NCBI GenBank assembly: GCA_902782125.1
Contig: CACZMA010000001.1
Span: 1 to 64,000, forward strand
Direction: 5' to 3'
Length of the DNA stretch: 64,000 bases
Source of the DNA: Oscillospiraceae bacterium
Lineage (GTDB): Bacteria > Bacillota > Clostridia > Saccharofermentanales > Saccharofermentanaceae
A program made the translations under genes and the position numbers. Under the pieces are notes generated by a model. That model was not told where the DNA came from and ran no database searches. It was given only the letters and a program-made list of their open reading frames with translations. Shown piece by piece: positions 36,352-42,958 of the stretch (positions are counted from its first letter, which is position 1; every line of letters begins with the position of its first letter).

Positions 36352-36426
36352 GCCAATGTGGCTCAGGGGTAGAGCAATTCACTCGTAATGAATAGGTCGT
36401 GGGTTCGATTCCCACCATTGGCTCCA
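36352..36426 (+). tRNA. tRNA-Thr (anticodon CGT)
   Basis: The 75-base sequence folds as a full cloverleaf: acceptor GCCAATG/CATTGGC, D stem GCTC/GAGC, anticodon stem ATTCA/TGAAT with loop CTCGTAA, T stem GTGGG/CCCAC with TTCGATT, and encoded CCA. The anticodon CGT reads ACG (threonine). A consensus promoter precedes it and a long hairpin follows. Confidence 0.96.
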
Positions 36427-37342: not shown

Positions 37343-38521
37343 TCAGTGATGGAATAAGCGAATTCCCGTGAATGCCATCGCCATGTTGTACTTGTTGCAT
37401 GTCATGATGACATGGTCGTCGCGGATGGATCCGCCGGGTTCGGCAATGTACTTAACACCGCTCTTGTAAGCACGCTCGATGTTATCGCCGAACGGGAAGA
37501 ATGCATCTGAACCGAGTGCAACATCAGTGTTCTTTGCAAGCCATGCTTTCTTCTCCTCGATCGTAAGGGGCTCCGGCTTCTCCTTGAACAGAGTCTGCCA
37601 TACGCCGTCGCGGAGTACATCCTCATATTCGTCAGACATATAGACATCGATGGTGTTGTCTCTGTCAGGACGGCCGATACCGTCAACGAACTTAAGGCCC
37701 ATGACCTTCGGGTTCTGTCTCATCCACCAGTTGTCAGCCTTGGAACCTGCAAGTCTTGTGCAGTGGATCCTAGACTGCTGGCCGGCACCGATACCGATTG
37801 CCTGTCCGTCCTTAACATAGCAGACGGAGTTACTCTGAGTGTACTTGAGAGTGATCAGAGAGATGAGAAGGTCGATCTTCTTGTCATCAGGGATGTCCTT
37901 GTTGTCTGTAACGATGTTGGAGAGAAGGTCGTTGTTGATAGCGAGCTCATTCCTTCCCTGCTCGAATGTGACACCGAATACCTGCTTTGTCTCGATGGGA
38001 TCGGGTATATAATCAGGATCGATCTTGATGACATTGTATGTGCCCTTACGCTTGGACTTCAGGATCTCGAGAGCATCATCGGTATAACCGGGAGCGATGA
38101 TACCGTCGGATACTTCTCTCTTGAGCATTGTAGCTGTGATCGCATCGCAAGTATCGGAAAGGGCAACAAAGTCACCGTAAGAAGACATTCTGTCAGCGCC
38201 TCTTGCTCTGGCATAAGCGCATGCGATCGGTGAGAGTTCGCCGAGGTCATCAACGAAGTAGATCTTTGCTTCTGTCTCGGACAGGGGCTTGCCTACTGCA
38301 GCGCCTGCAGGAGATACATGCTTGAATGAAGTAGCAGACGGAAGGCCTGTAGCAATCTTGAGTTCTCTTACGAGCTGCCAGCCGTTGAAAGCATCAAGCA
38401 GATTGATATATCCGGGCTTTCCGTTCAGCACTTCGATCGGAAGGTCGGATCCGTTGTTCATAAAAACCCTGGAAGGCTTCTGGTTGGGGTTGCAGCCGTA
38501 CTTAAGGGCCATCTCGTTCAT
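37343..38521 (-). CDS. purH: AICAR transformylase (stand-alone PurH C-terminal type)
   Basis: This 392-residue enzyme formylates AICAR to FAICAR with 10-formyl-tetrahydrofolate, the ninth step of IMP synthesis. It begins MALKYGCNPNQKPSR after three extra residues and has SFKHVSPAGAAVG with the catalytic Lys-His pair, NSVCYVKDGQAIGIGAGQQSR and SDAFFPFGDNIERA. The IMP cyclohydrolase domain usual in PurH is absent; a separate PurO gene lies directly upstream. GGAGG precedes the ATG. Confidence 0.93.
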   Translation of the reverse strand: MNEMALKYGCNPNQKPSRVFMNNGSDLPIEVLNGKPGYINLLDAFNGWQLVRELKIATGLPSATSFKHVSPAGAAVGKPLSETEAKIYFVDDLGELSPIACAYARARGADRMSSYGDFVALSDTCDAITATMLKREVSDGIIAPGYTDDALEILKSKRKGTYNVIKIDPDYIPDPIETKQVFGVTFEQGRNELAINNDLLSNIVTDNKDIPDDKKIDLLISLITLKYTQSNSVCYVKDGQAIGIGAGQQSRIHCTRLAGSKADNWWMRQNPKVMGLKFVDGIGRPDRDNTIDVYMSDEYEDVLRDGVWQTLFKEKPEPLTIEEKKAWLAKNTDVALGSDAFFPFGDNIERAYKSGVKYIAEPGGSIRDDHVIMTCNKYNMAMAFTGIRLFHH

Positions 38522-38546
38522 AGTTTTATTCCTCCGCGGTTAATAA

Positions 38547-39260
38547 TTATACGTTCTTGTTTACGATTCTCGTGTCAGCCTTGCCTGTAGCGATATCGAT
38601 GTATCTTACAAAGAGTGATACCTTGTTGTCATCGTTCAGAGACTCCCACACATTGGCAGTGAACTCGTCGATATCCCCCTTGATCTCAACCTTCTCAGGC
38701 TCACCTTCGAAAGAAGGAAGCGGGTTGCCGTCACCCATGTATGTGTGCAGGAATCTGCCGATGCCGGCCTTGGGGTTGGTATATGTGAATGTGTGGCGCT
38801 CACATGAAGACGGATCGCCGTCAGCACTCTTCAGGATGGACATTGCATAGTTGTATGTACCACCCTCAACGTGCATGATACCGGATATTCTCGGAGTATA
38901 GTTCGGAGCATCATCCTCGAACTCTCTGCATCTTAATGACTGCTCGAAAGTCATCTGCTTATCCATGCCGTCGTAGATCGTATCAGTCTGGTCACCGTTG
39001 GTAACGATGGTCTTGTTGCCGAGTACTCTTACGGGAGAATAGATGATGAGGTGCGGATCCGTAAGCTTGGAAGGATCAAAAGCCTCTGTCTTGATTCCGT
39101 CCTCTGTTGCCGTGAACACACGGTTACGGGAATTAACACTCCTGCCCATGATGAAGTAAGCTGTTACAGCCTTGCTTCCGTCTTCTGATCTTCCGATCAC
39201 GATTCCTCTTCCGGGATATGAATTCTCCTTAAGAAGCTTACCCAAATCTGCTGTTTCCAT
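38547..39260 (-). CDS. purO: IMP cyclohydrolase, PurO type
   Basis: This 237-residue protein resembles archaeal-type IMP cyclohydrolase, which closes FAICAR to IMP. Features are YPGRGIVIGRSEDG, AYFIMGRSVNSRNRVF, NYTPRISGIMH and ERHTFTY with GIGRFLHTYMGDGNPLPSF. It pairs with the cyclohydrolase-free transformylase downstream and so completes the pathway. AGGAGG precedes the ATG. Confidence 0.9.
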   Translation of the reverse strand: METADLGKLLKENSYPGRGIVIGRSEDGSKAVTAYFIMGRSVNSRNRVFTATEDGIKTEAFDPSKLTDPHLIIYSPVRVLGNKTIVTNGDQTDTIYDGMDKQMTFEQSLRCREFEDDAPNYTPRISGIMHVEGGTYNYAMSILKSADGDPSSCERHTFTYTNPKAGIGRFLHTYMGDGNPLPSFEGEPEKVEIKGDIDEFTANVWESLNDDNKVSLFVRYIDIATGKADTRIVNKNV

Positions 39261-39279: not shown

Positions 39280-39903
39280 TTATTCTCTTACGTATGCAAT
39301 GTTGTTATCGATCTCCACCTTGCCGTCTGCTATAAGCCTTATAGCCTTCGGAAGGATCTCCCACTCGCATTCCTTCATGATGCGCTTCTGCAGTGTCTCG
39401 GGAGTATCATCGGGCAGGACATCCACTGACTTCTGCAGCAGTATCGGGCCCTCATCATAATTCTCGTTCACGAAATGCACCGTGGCACCGCTGACCTTTA
39501 CGCCTCTCGCAAGGGCTGCCCTGTGAGGCTTGATGCCGTACATGCCGGCACCGCAGAAAGACGGAATGAGCGCGGGATGTATGTTGATTATACGATTGGA
39601 ATACTCGCTGACGATCTTCGGTCCGAGGAGTGAGAGATATCCTGCAAGGACCACCAGTTCGGCACCGGAAGCCTTAACCTCCTCTACGACCTTCTGATCC
39701 CATTCAGCCTTGTCTGCAAAATCAGCAGAACGGAGTACGACAGACTTTATGCCGTTATCCGCAGCACGTGTAAGTGCATAAGCATCGGGAGAAGACGACA
39801 GCACAAGGACTATCTCGATATCCTGAAGGATACCTGTCTTCGTATTATCGATTATCGCCTGAAGGTTAGTACCGCCTCCGGAGACAAATACTGCTATCTT
39901 CAT
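39280..39903 (-). CDS. purN: Phosphoribosylglycinamide formyltransferase
   Basis: GAR transformylase adds the first formyl group from 10-formyl-tetrahydrofolate. The 207-residue protein has VSGGGTNLQAIID, VLAGYLSLLGPKIV, the catalytic Asn-His in INIHPALIPSF and the Asp in NYDEGPILLQ. It lies 12 bases after purF in the purine operon. Confidence 0.95.
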   Translation of the reverse strand: MKIAVFVSGGGTNLQAIIDNTKTGILQDIEIVLVLSSSPDAYALTRAADNGIKSVVLRSADFADKAEWDQKVVEEVKASGAELVVLAGYLSLLGPKIVSEYSNRIINIHPALIPSFCGAGMYGIKPHRAALARGVKVSGATVHFVNENYDEGPILLQKSVDVLPDDTPETLQKRIMKECEWEILPKAIRLIADGKVEIDNNIAYVRE

Positions 39904-39915
39904 CCGTTACTCCTC

Positions 39916-41301
39916 TTAAAACTCAGTATCTTCAGGTCTGCCTGCGACGAAGTTGCCGTCAAAGCAAGCAGCACAAACATCGCATTCGATCGTGTTGAGA
40001 CACTCCTTGAGCTTGTCCAGGCTGATGTATCCGAGAGAATCTGCGCCGATCATCTGTCTGATGTCTTCAACAGACTTGGTAGCGGCAGGAAGTTCTGTCT
40101 CGGAAGAAGCGTTTGCTCCGTAGCAGCAGCCGAACTTTACCGGAGGAGAAGCGAGTCTTACGTGTACTTCCTTGGCACCGTTCTCTCTGAGGAAGCTGAT
40201 GATGTGCTTTGTTGTGGTACCTCTTACGAGGGAGTCATCAACGATCGCGATCCTCTTGTCCTTGATGGCTGTCTTAAGAGCAGCAAACTTCATCTTGACC
40301 GCGAGTTCACGCTGTGTCTGCGTGCTCTTGATGAACGTTCTGCCGACATAGCGGTTCTTGAGAAGACCTGCGCCGTAAGGAACGCCGAGACCTGCCGCAA
40401 AACCTTCAGCAGCGGCATTACCGGAGTCAGGCGCACCGATTACGAGGTCGACATCACAGGGATGAAGCTCAGCCAAAGCCTTACCTGCTCTGTATCTGGA
40501 ATCAAAAACACTCATACCGTCGATGACGGAATCAGGTCTTGCAATATATACATACTCAAAGATGCACACCTTGCCGTCCTGTCTGTTCGTGGGACTCTCT
40601 TTGTAGAATGTAGATTTAACGCCCTCCGAAGAGATAGAGATGATCTCGCCCGGCTCGATGTCTCTTATGAATTCAGCGCCGATAGCATCGAGCGCACAAT
40701 TCTCGGAAGACAGGAAATATGTATCGCCGATCCTACCGAGAACGAGCGGTCTGATTCCGTAAGGATCTCTTACGCCGATGAGCTTGTTGTCTGTCATGAA
40801 GATCATGGAATATACACCATGGATCTCTTTCATCGTCTCGAGGATAGCCGGCTCGCACTCGTCAGTCTTGATGCGGTTCCTGGAGAACAGCGAGAGGATG
40901 AGCTCCGCATCGATGTTTGTCTGGAAGATCGCACCCTGGTTAACGAGCTCTTCCTTGATGGCGGAAGCATTCATTACGACAGAGTCGCATGTAAGTCCGA
41001 TGTTGCCTACTCTTGACTTGATGATGATAGGCTGGATGGCTTCGGTGCCTGACTCTCTGGGCGAACCGCCTCTCGCGTGGCCGATGGCGGAGAATCCGGT
41101 AAGAGCCGAGATGGTAACTTCATCGAATACGTCGGTTACCAGGCCGGGATTCTTGTGGATCAGGAATGAACCGCCGTTATTGACTGCAATACCTGCGGAC
41201 TCCTGTCCTCTGTGCTGAAGTGAGAAGATTCCGTAATAACAGGATCTTGTCACATCCTCCGTGTTGCCCTTGATGTTGAAAGCACCGAAAATACCACTCA
41301 T
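39916..41301 (-). CDS. purF: Amidophosphoribosyltransferase with degenerate glutaminase domain
   Basis: PurF makes phosphoribosylamine from PRPP and glutamine. The phosphoribosyltransferase half of this 461-residue protein is intact: IVDDSLVRGTTTKHI binds PRPP, LLKNRYVGRTFI is conserved, and Cys residues for the iron-sulfur cluster remain (KVCIFEYVY, FGCCYG, CDVCAACF). The glutaminase half is not. It starts MSGIFGAF, so Ser replaces the nucleophilic Cys; the HNGN oxyanion motif is TCDSV; RYxTxG is RGGSPRESG. It may use ammonia, work with another glutaminase, or be a paralogue of a normal PurF elsewhere. Confidence 0.93.
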   Translation of the reverse strand: MSGIFGAFNIKGNTEDVTRSCYYGIFSLQHRGQESAGIAVNNGGSFLIHKNPGLVTDVFDEVTISALTGFSAIGHARGGSPRESGTEAIQPIIIKSRVGNIGLTCDSVVMNASAIKEELVNQGAIFQTNIDAELILSLFSRNRIKTDECEPAILETMKEIHGVYSMIFMTDNKLIGVRDPYGIRPLVLGRIGDTYFLSSENCALDAIGAEFIRDIEPGEIISISSEGVKSTFYKESPTNRQDGKVCIFEYVYIARPDSVIDGMSVFDSRYRAGKALAELHPCDVDLVIGAPDSGNAAAEGFAAGLGVPYGAGLLKNRYVGRTFIKSTQTQRELAVKMKFAALKTAIKDKRIAIVDDSLVRGTTTKHIISFLRENGAKEVHVRLASPPVKFGCCYGANASSETELPAATKSVEDIRQMIGADSLGYISLDKLKECLNTIECDVCAACFDGNFVAGRPEDTEF

Positions 41302-41322
41302 TTGAGTCTTGCTCCTTAACCT

Positions 41323-41826
41323 TTAGATATTCGCTATTTTCTCCTTCAGAGCCGCATCCTTGGCGTCTACTGAAGATTTGAGTTCTTCTTTGTATTCAGC
41401 GAGCTTTGCTCTCAGCTCGCCGTCTCTTATCGCTATCATCTGGCAGGCCAGGATAGCTGCATTGGCTGCGCCGTCAATGGCAACAGTCGCTACCGGTATG
41501 CCCGTAGGCATCTGTACTGTGGCATAAAGCGCATCAACGCCGTTAAGAGCGCCTCCCTTGCAGGGAACTCCGATAACGGGGAGCGTCGTATGTGCAGCAA
41601 GAACACCGGCAAGGTGAGCCGCGAGGCCTGCAGCCGCGATTATTACATCATATCCTTCTGATTCTGCTTCACTTGCAAGCTTGGCAGCACGCTCGGGAGT
41701 CCTGTGGGCAGAAGCCACTGTGGCATCATAAGCCACATCGAACTTGGAGAGCATCTTAAAACATTTTTCCATTACGGGGAAATCGGAATCCGAACCCATT
41801 ACAACAAGAACTTTACCGTTTGACAT
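41323..41826 (-). CDS. purE: N5-carboxyaminoimidazole ribonucleotide mutase
   Basis: This class I PurE (167 residues) moves the carboxyl group to make CAIR. It has MGSDSDFPVM, the catalytic SAHRTPER, AAAGLAAHLAGVLAAHT and QMPTGIPVATVAI. The ATG at 41826 has AAAGG upstream; the frame is open further but into the capA end. It begins only 22 bases after the capA stop, so the purine genes may be read from the capA promoter. Confidence 0.96.
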   Translation of the reverse strand: MSNGKVLVVMGSDSDFPVMEKCFKMLSKFDVAYDATVASAHRTPERAAKLASEAESEGYDVIIAAAGLAAHLAGVLAAHTTLPVIGVPCKGGALNGVDALYATVQMPTGIPVATVAIDGAANAAILACQMIAIRDGELRAKLAEYKEELKSSVDAKDAALKEKIANI

Positions 41827-41848: not shown

Positions 41849-42958
41849 TTATTCGTCCTCATTGGACCAGCCGAGCTTAGAAAGAACGCGATAGTACTCT
41901 TCGGTTCCCCATTCATACGGCGCCGGACAGAAGTCATTACCGGGTCTCGTCGAGGTCTGAGAATAAGGAATTACGCTCAGTTTATAGTCTACGCAACTTT
42001 GGCCTTCACTGTCCATTATAAATGTGCATTGAATTATACAGGAATCGGGGTCGCTCAATATGTTATTTCCACCAAAACAAAAATTGGACAGGCTGTAGCA
42101 TATGTATTTGCCGTTGTACTCCTCTATGGGCTGGAGCCTGTGCGGGTGAGTTCCTATGACGATATCGGCACCGTAATCTATCAGGCCGTATGCCAGGGAG
42201 ATCTGGTCATTATTGGGGGTATACATCTTCTCCACTCCCCAGTGACATGAAGCAATGATTATGTTGGCACCCATCTCCTTGAGTTCATCGATGCAGGCCT
42301 TGCCCTGATCCAGGGTTCCGCTGTTGCCAATGCCGAACATGCCGATCTTGATCCCGTCCGGGGTCTCGTATATGGCGACATTGTCCGCATCACTCCAGAT
42401 AATGCCGTATTCGTCGAGGTTATCTCTTGTATCTTCAAGTCCCTCGAGCTTAAAGTCCTTCGTGTGGTTATTGGCTATGTTGACAGCCTCGATGCCTGCT
42501 ATCTGGAGCATCTCGAGTGCTTCGGGCTTCATCTTGAAGACGAATTCCTTCTGGGCATAGCTCGTGAGGTCAGTAACGGCATTCTCGAGATTGCCGAGTG
42601 TCAGATCGTCAGCAAGGAAGATATCCTTGCAGTTCTGGAAGCAGTATTCGTAATCGTCACCTACGACGGCATTGAAGCCTATGGAGCTGGAAGATCTGGC
42701 ATCCTCGGTCAGGGTAAGATCCCCGACAAAAGACACTGTAACCTGCTTGGGTTCCATGGCTGCGATCTCTTCAGCAGGAGGCAGAGGAGTCGGCGTGGGG
42801 GTAGGCGTCGGTGACGGCAGTGTGGTCTCTCCTACAGTATCCAGGATCATCGTCGTCTGGGCCGTATCGGGAGCAAATCCATCTTCAGACGAAGAACAGG
42901 CGGATATGCCAAGCACAGCCGCCAGGATAAGGACCGGGATAAAAGGATAAGATTTCAT
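41849..42958 (-). CDS. CapA family lipoprotein (PGA-synthesis-like metallophosphatase fold)
   Basis: This 369-residue protein has a lipoprotein signal ending in LGISAC, a PTPTPTPTP linker and a CapA domain of the calcineurin-like phosphoesterase fold: VSFVGDLTLTEDA, LGNLENAVTD, NIANNHTKD, CHWGVE and IGTHPHRLQPIE. Family members act in polyglutamate capsule synthesis or as cell-surface enzymes of unknown substrate. No capB or capC genes are near, so a capsule role is not supported. The TATAAT box ends six bases before the ATG and no ribosome site is visible. Confidence 0.88.
   Translation of the reverse strand: MKSYPFIPVLILAAVLGISACSSSEDGFAPDTAQTTMILDTVGETTLPSPTPTPTPTPLPPAEEIAAMEPKQVTVSFVGDLTLTEDARSSSSIGFNAVVGDDYEYCFQNCKDIFLADDLTLGNLENAVTDLTSYAQKEFVFKMKPEALEMLQIAGIEAVNIANNHTKDFKLEGLEDTRDNLDEYGIIWSDADNVAIYETPDGIKIGMFGIGNSGTLDQGKACIDELKEMGANIIIASCHWGVEKMYTPNNDQISLAYGLIDYGADIVIGTHPHRLQPIEEYNGKYICYSLSNFCFGGNNILSDPDSCIIQCTFIMDSEGQSCVDYKLSVIPYSQTSTRPGNDFCPAPYEWGTEEYYRVLSKLGWSNEDE

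Follow-up and report, generated by a model that had tools for sequence, protein, structure and literature searches.

A purine-operon PurF that has lost its glutaminase residues and probably uses ammonia

The PurF encoded in the purine operon of the window (the whole stretch of 64,000 nucleotides that was analysed) has lost its glutaminase site, as sequence comparison strongly supports, and is probably a phosphoribosylamine synthase with free ammonia as the nitrogen donor, because its glutamine-handling parts are lost and the rest of the enzyme is intact. The first committed step of purine synthesis is taught as glutamine-dependent.

The gene occupies an open reading frame of the minus strand (39916–41301) that encodes a full-length PurF, scoring 438.6 bits against TIGR01134 (cut-off 350). 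The operon has the order capA-purE-purF-purN-purO-purH, with purN beginning 12 nt past purF, and comprises the following features:

37343–38521, minus strand: monofunctional AICAR formyltransferase (NF005492, 728.8 bits)
38547–39260, minus strand: purO-like IMP cyclohydrolase (52 bits, under the 150-bit cut-off)
39280–39903, minus strand: purN (TIGR00639)
39916–41301, minus strand: putatively glutaminase-dead PurF, 461 aa (TIGR01134, above cut-off)
40213–40245, minus strand: residues 353–363, PRPP loop IVDDSLVRGTT, intact
40288–40359, minus strand: residues 315–338, flexible loop and ammonia-channel residues KNRYVGRTFI...KMK, intact
40909–40911, minus strand: Asp131, equivalent to the glutamine-binding Asp127 of E. 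coli, retained
40969–40995, minus strand: residues 103–111, LTCDSVVMN, formerly the oxyanion HNGN, with Asn-Gly replaced by Asp-Ser
41062–41082, minus strand: residues 74–80, GHARGGS, formerly HVRYxTx, with Arg retained and Tyr and Thr gone
41296–41298, minus strand: Ser2 codon AGT at the position of the nucleophilic Cys (Ser in 62/62 of the clade, Cys in every operon orthologue from outside the genus)
41312–41317, minus strand: ribosome-binding site AAGGAG, 10 nt 5' of the ATG
41323–41826, minus strand: purE (TIGR01162); the mechanical open reading frame extends to 41937, but translation probably starts at the ATG at 41826
41849–42958, minus strand: CapA-like lipoprotein gene, found 5' of purE family-wide

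The purE, purN, purO and purH neighbours bear out the earlier note, which had placed the gene in a purine operon, and the membership purE-purF-purN-purO-purH is retained genus-wide. The two genes at 37343–39260, the purO-like cyclohydrolase and the monofunctional AICAR formyltransferase, replace the bifunctional purH of the sister genera, and this split is found in the same lineage as the loss of the PurF glutaminase. A search for a riboswitch 5' of the operon gave no Rfam match; downstream of the operon lies a tRNA-Thr(CGT) gene (36352–36426, plus strand). An antisense open reading frame of 284 codons (40162–41016, plus strand) overlaps purF and shows no sign of being a gene. The PurM of the same genome (contig 4; L151, L152) is divergent, reaching at most 61 bits against TIGR00878, whose cut-off is 236.

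The protein begins with MSGIFG, and its Ser2 aligns with the nucleophilic Cys of the sister-genus orthologues. The alignment comprised 62 distinct same-genus orthologues, their counterparts from sister genera and families, and the intact paralogue discussed below. Because Ser occupies this position in all 62 same-genus sequences, and the sister genera keep Cys and Asn-Gly at the same locus, the Ser is not a sequencing error; this explanation, together with that of a wrongly assigned start, is ruled out by the 62/62 conservation, the ribosome-binding site and the absence of any in-frame Cys codon 5' of the ATG.

The replacement of the oxyanion HNGN by TCDSV is equally general, the Asn being Asp in 59 of the 62 sequences and the Gly retained in none, so that the Asn-Gly pair occurs in 0/62. 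The gate Tyr is likewise retained in 0/62, with Gly in its place in 59. Both Cys and Asn-Gly are found in all operon orthologues from outside the genus (23/23) and in all intact paralogues (40/40). The changes of nucleophile and oxyanion site claimed in the earlier note are therefore real and shared across the same-genus clade; its statement that the RYxTxG motif is gone holds for Tyr and Thr but not for Arg (IGHVRYSTSG has become IGHARGGSPR), this residue (R73 in E. coli) being Arg in 56 sequences and Lys in the other 6. The glutamine-binding Asp (D127 in E. coli) is present in 60/62. In terms of the traits of a glutamine-dependent PurF, a class II amidotransferase, the N-terminal Cys and the oxyanion Asn-Gly are thus absent from the window's protein, and the glutamine-binding Arg and Asp are found in its clade. 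The PRPP loop VDDSLVRGTT and the flexible channel loop KNRYVGRTFI are invariant (62/62), as are the channel residues F254, Y258, K326, Y329, R332, F334 and I335 (E. coli numbering, after the solved structures). The four Fe-S cysteines are present in every sequence that reaches them, and the claim that the PRPP site and the cluster cysteines are kept was correct.

A graded series of intermediates lies outside the genus. In two other families of the order, the operon-type orthologue carries Cys, HVRYP and NG; the copy at this operon position in the sister genera g3, g4 and g5 still has Cys and NG, and its gate Tyr gives way to Phe and then to Thr; in the genus of the window, Cys, Tyr and NG are all absent. 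In a tree built by a quick method without bootstrap, and without archaeal PurF' sequences, the Cys-less clade is monophyletic (SH-aLRT 100) and nested in the operon PurF clade (100), its sister being g5, followed by g4 and g3. The simplest reading is one glutaminase loss, in the ancestor of the genus. The named relatives are rumen and gut bacteria of the Saccharofermentans/Mageeibacillus type, including the isolate YRB3002, which has one Cys-less and one intact PurF.

The ratio of amino-acid distances between the glutaminase and PRTase halves is 1.78 in the Cys-less clade vs 1.18–1.47 in the Cys-bearing clades. Omega is 0.083 for the glutaminase half and 0.057 for the PRTase half, the corresponding values for the intact paralogue being 0.048 and 0.037. 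Both domains are under purifying selection, which is strong on the PRTase half, the glutaminase half being modestly relaxed yet clearly maintained. In an AF2 model (pLDDT 86), the overall PurF fold is kept, with TM scores of 0.89–0.90 to 1ao0, 1gph and 6lbp. One genome (G056; L005, L251) encodes two PurF of the glutaminase-dead type, 85% and 76% identical to that of the window, and one intact PurF.

The search for a second purF with intact Cys, which the earlier note had proposed, was positive: the window's genome carries one on contig 17, 44% identical to the operon copy. The Cys-less purF is found in 77/85 genomes of the genus, its open frame being full-length in nearly all of them. Among the 37 genomes at least 94% complete, 32 have both genes, two (G048 and G050) lack the Cys-less operon purF and have another dead PurF-like paralogue, and three (G030, G049 and G072) have no intact PurF. 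About 1.0 such absence was expected from incompleteness, and since the Poisson probability of three or more is about 0.08, the copy number of the intact PurF alone is only suggestive.

Synteny is stronger evidence than copy number that the intact PurF has been lost. Its ancestral site, read from the flanks of the intact PurF in G040, a close relative of G030, is contiguous in G030 (94% complete; c1-[177 bp]-radical SAM) and contains no PurF; this genome has the Cys-less purF as well as purD, purE, purN, purO and purH. The site is likewise empty (110 bp) in G086, which is only 69% complete and keeps the Cys-less purF, and also in G092 of genus g5, whose sole copy is the Cys-bearing operon PurF. 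Five further genomes (G049, G072, G026, G028 and G069) were left out as sole-copy cases, the flank being at a contig end or missing. The intact PurF looks dispensable. That of G030 may have been relocated into the missing 6% of the draft genome, since in the window's genome the ancestral, radical SAM-adjacent site is empty and the intact PurF lies elsewhere (L127, L173), which implies at least one move in the genus. In its present location it is near a gene for a 1513-aa glutamate-synthase-like protein and a TrpB-like gene. The location varies, and the neighbourhoods of the intact PurF gave no consistent link to nitrogen-assimilation genes.

A glutaminase-less sole PurF in a purine operon is also seen in a distantly related bacterium. 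The isolate Neofamilia massiliensis SIT13 has a single PurF match in its genome (L122:7986-9272), which starts TTG-AGC-GGA (MSGHIGIFG) with no N-terminal Cys, has SIDGN at the oxyanion site, lacks the Asp region and keeps the PRPP loop intact. It lies within purC-purE-purF-purM-purN-purH (gene names from reading the translations). Like the PurF of the window, it combines the absence of Cys with a degenerate glutaminase site and a purine operon; unlike it, it belongs to an independent lineage, has no Asp region and is the sole PurF of its genome. De novo purine synthesis might be entered only through free ammonia, by way of a sole glutaminase-less PurF that evolved at least twice (in this genus and in Neofamilia), the emptied pocket possibly having been turned into an amino-acid sensor; we put this wider proposal forward tentatively, as a serious possibility somewhat short of probable.

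What the substitution found here does to the enzyme is known from the biochemistry of a relative: exchanging Cys1 of E. coli PurF for Ser or Ala abolishes the glutamine activity and leaves the ammonia activity in place (PMC3261824, its reference 22). In the preferred reading, that of an ammonia-dependent synthase, ammonia would pass directly into the PRTase site, the channel residues of that half remaining, while the Ntn domain would persist in a structural or allosteric role; as the entry enzyme of the operon, this PurF would feed PurD. The unlinked intact PurF of most species would provide glutamine-dependent synthesis, presumably under ammonia scarcity, and some species appear to have lost it. 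We infer a supply of ammonia to these bacteria from their rumen and gut origin. Plain ammonia use leaves unexplained the constrained glutaminase half and the kept Arg, Asp and Ser; moreover, the presence of an intact PurF in most genomes counts against ammonia use in those genomes, where a subunit or regulatory role is possible.

The earlier note had offered two functions, an ammonia-dependent synthase and a subunit paired with another glutaminase. The former appears better supported, because genomes can lose the intact PurF and retain the Cys-less one, and because the sole PurF of N. massiliensis is glutaminase-less; pairing is possible beside an intact PurF, but could not be obligatory in genomes lacking one. 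The two proteins might form a mixed oligomer in which the intact PurF hydrolyses glutamine and the dead chain gives extra PRTase capacity or regulation. PurF enzymes are oligomeric, as is known from B. subtilis and E. coli, and the two proteins co-occur in most of the genus; however, a PurF channel does not cross between chains, as is known from E. coli, the two genes are never adjacent in the loci read and their products are only 44% identical, and G030 and G086 keep the Cys-less copy with no intact PurF at the empty ancestral site. We therefore consider a mixed oligomer unlikely, although it is the least unlikely of the alternatives.

Somewhat less probable still is a regulatory protein, whose emptied pocket would detect glutamine or glutamate and control purine flux, whether or not PRTase activity is retained. 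Such a role would suit the persistence of Arg (or Lys) and Asp despite the loss of nucleophile and oxyanion hole, as well as the purifying selection on the glutaminase half, but a pure sensor has no need of a PRTase active site, which is fully kept and is the most constrained part of the protein, and a genome with the Cys-less PurF only and the rest of the pathway would be left unexplained. An active synthase might also have such a sensing function.

It is very improbable that Ser2, N-terminal after removal of Met, is the nucleophile of a PurF that is still a glutaminase: Ser-type Ntn hydrolases exist and the MSG start is invariant (62/62), but the oxyanion Asn-Gly and the gate Tyr are lost in all 62 sequences. 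In addition, glutamine activity is undetectable in the C1S variant of E. coli PurF (PMC3261824). Equally improbable is that the gene is redundant and in the process of being lost; this is rejected on omega values below 0.1 and on the presence of the gene, mostly full-length, in 77/85 genomes, in spite of the relaxed glutaminase half and of an orthologue split into two open reading frames in the g5 genome G111 (contig 102:15851-17210, part in L058). That genome retains an intact second PurF, and its split copy is a possible pseudogene or assembly error.

Glutaminase-less PurF is uncommon, with a precedent in archaea for which ammonia use has been proposed; no characterised bacterial example was found in the literature searched, which leaves out most subscription journals and yielded only the archaeal review PMC3261824. 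If ammonia use is true, it would have consequences for how nitrogen is budgeted in the rumen and other ammonia-rich habitats. There is also an issue of annotation, as glutaminase-dead purF genes score as ordinary PurF.

The protein of the window shares with PurF (TIGR01134, EC 2.4.2.14) its length, fold, PRPP site, channel loop, Fe-S cysteines and operon context, but lacks the nucleophilic Cys, the oxyanion Asn-Gly and the gate Tyr, so that glutamine-dependent activity is not expected. A PurF-like family of the MGGFFG type (L136-L138, L260-L267) also lacks the nucleophilic Cys and keeps the PRPP loop, but it is only about 28–30% identical, reaches 186 bits against TIGR01134 (cut-off 350), forms a separate long branch and shows no operon link in three loci read. 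This family (MGGFFG...SHLGTRRGG) occurs in 17/300 sampled genomes of the phylum, and four genomes of this bacterial family that have no match to the Cys-less operon PurF contain a member. Mlab_0150 of Methanocorpusculum labreanum (PMC3261824) is a recent duplication in one archaeal species, whereas the state described here is genus-wide.

The closest parallel is the PurF' of Crenarchaeota, which is nucleophile-less, has purine genes nearby and occurs together with an intact PurF; its dependence on ammonia has only been proposed (PMC3261824). The PurF of the window is similarly a Cys-less second PurF, linked to purine genes, with an intact PurF alongside; it differs in being bacterial rather than archaeal, and in having Ser where PurF' often has Ala or Val, with the whole oxyanion site replaced. 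In a tree without archaeal PurF', it descends from the Cys-bearing operon PurF of its own family, which argues for convergence between the two. It also goes beyond PurF' in that its stepwise relatives are known and the intact partner is sometimes lost, and this series of intermediates, together with the lone glutaminase-less copies, makes the idea of ammonia use by archaeal PurF' directly testable.
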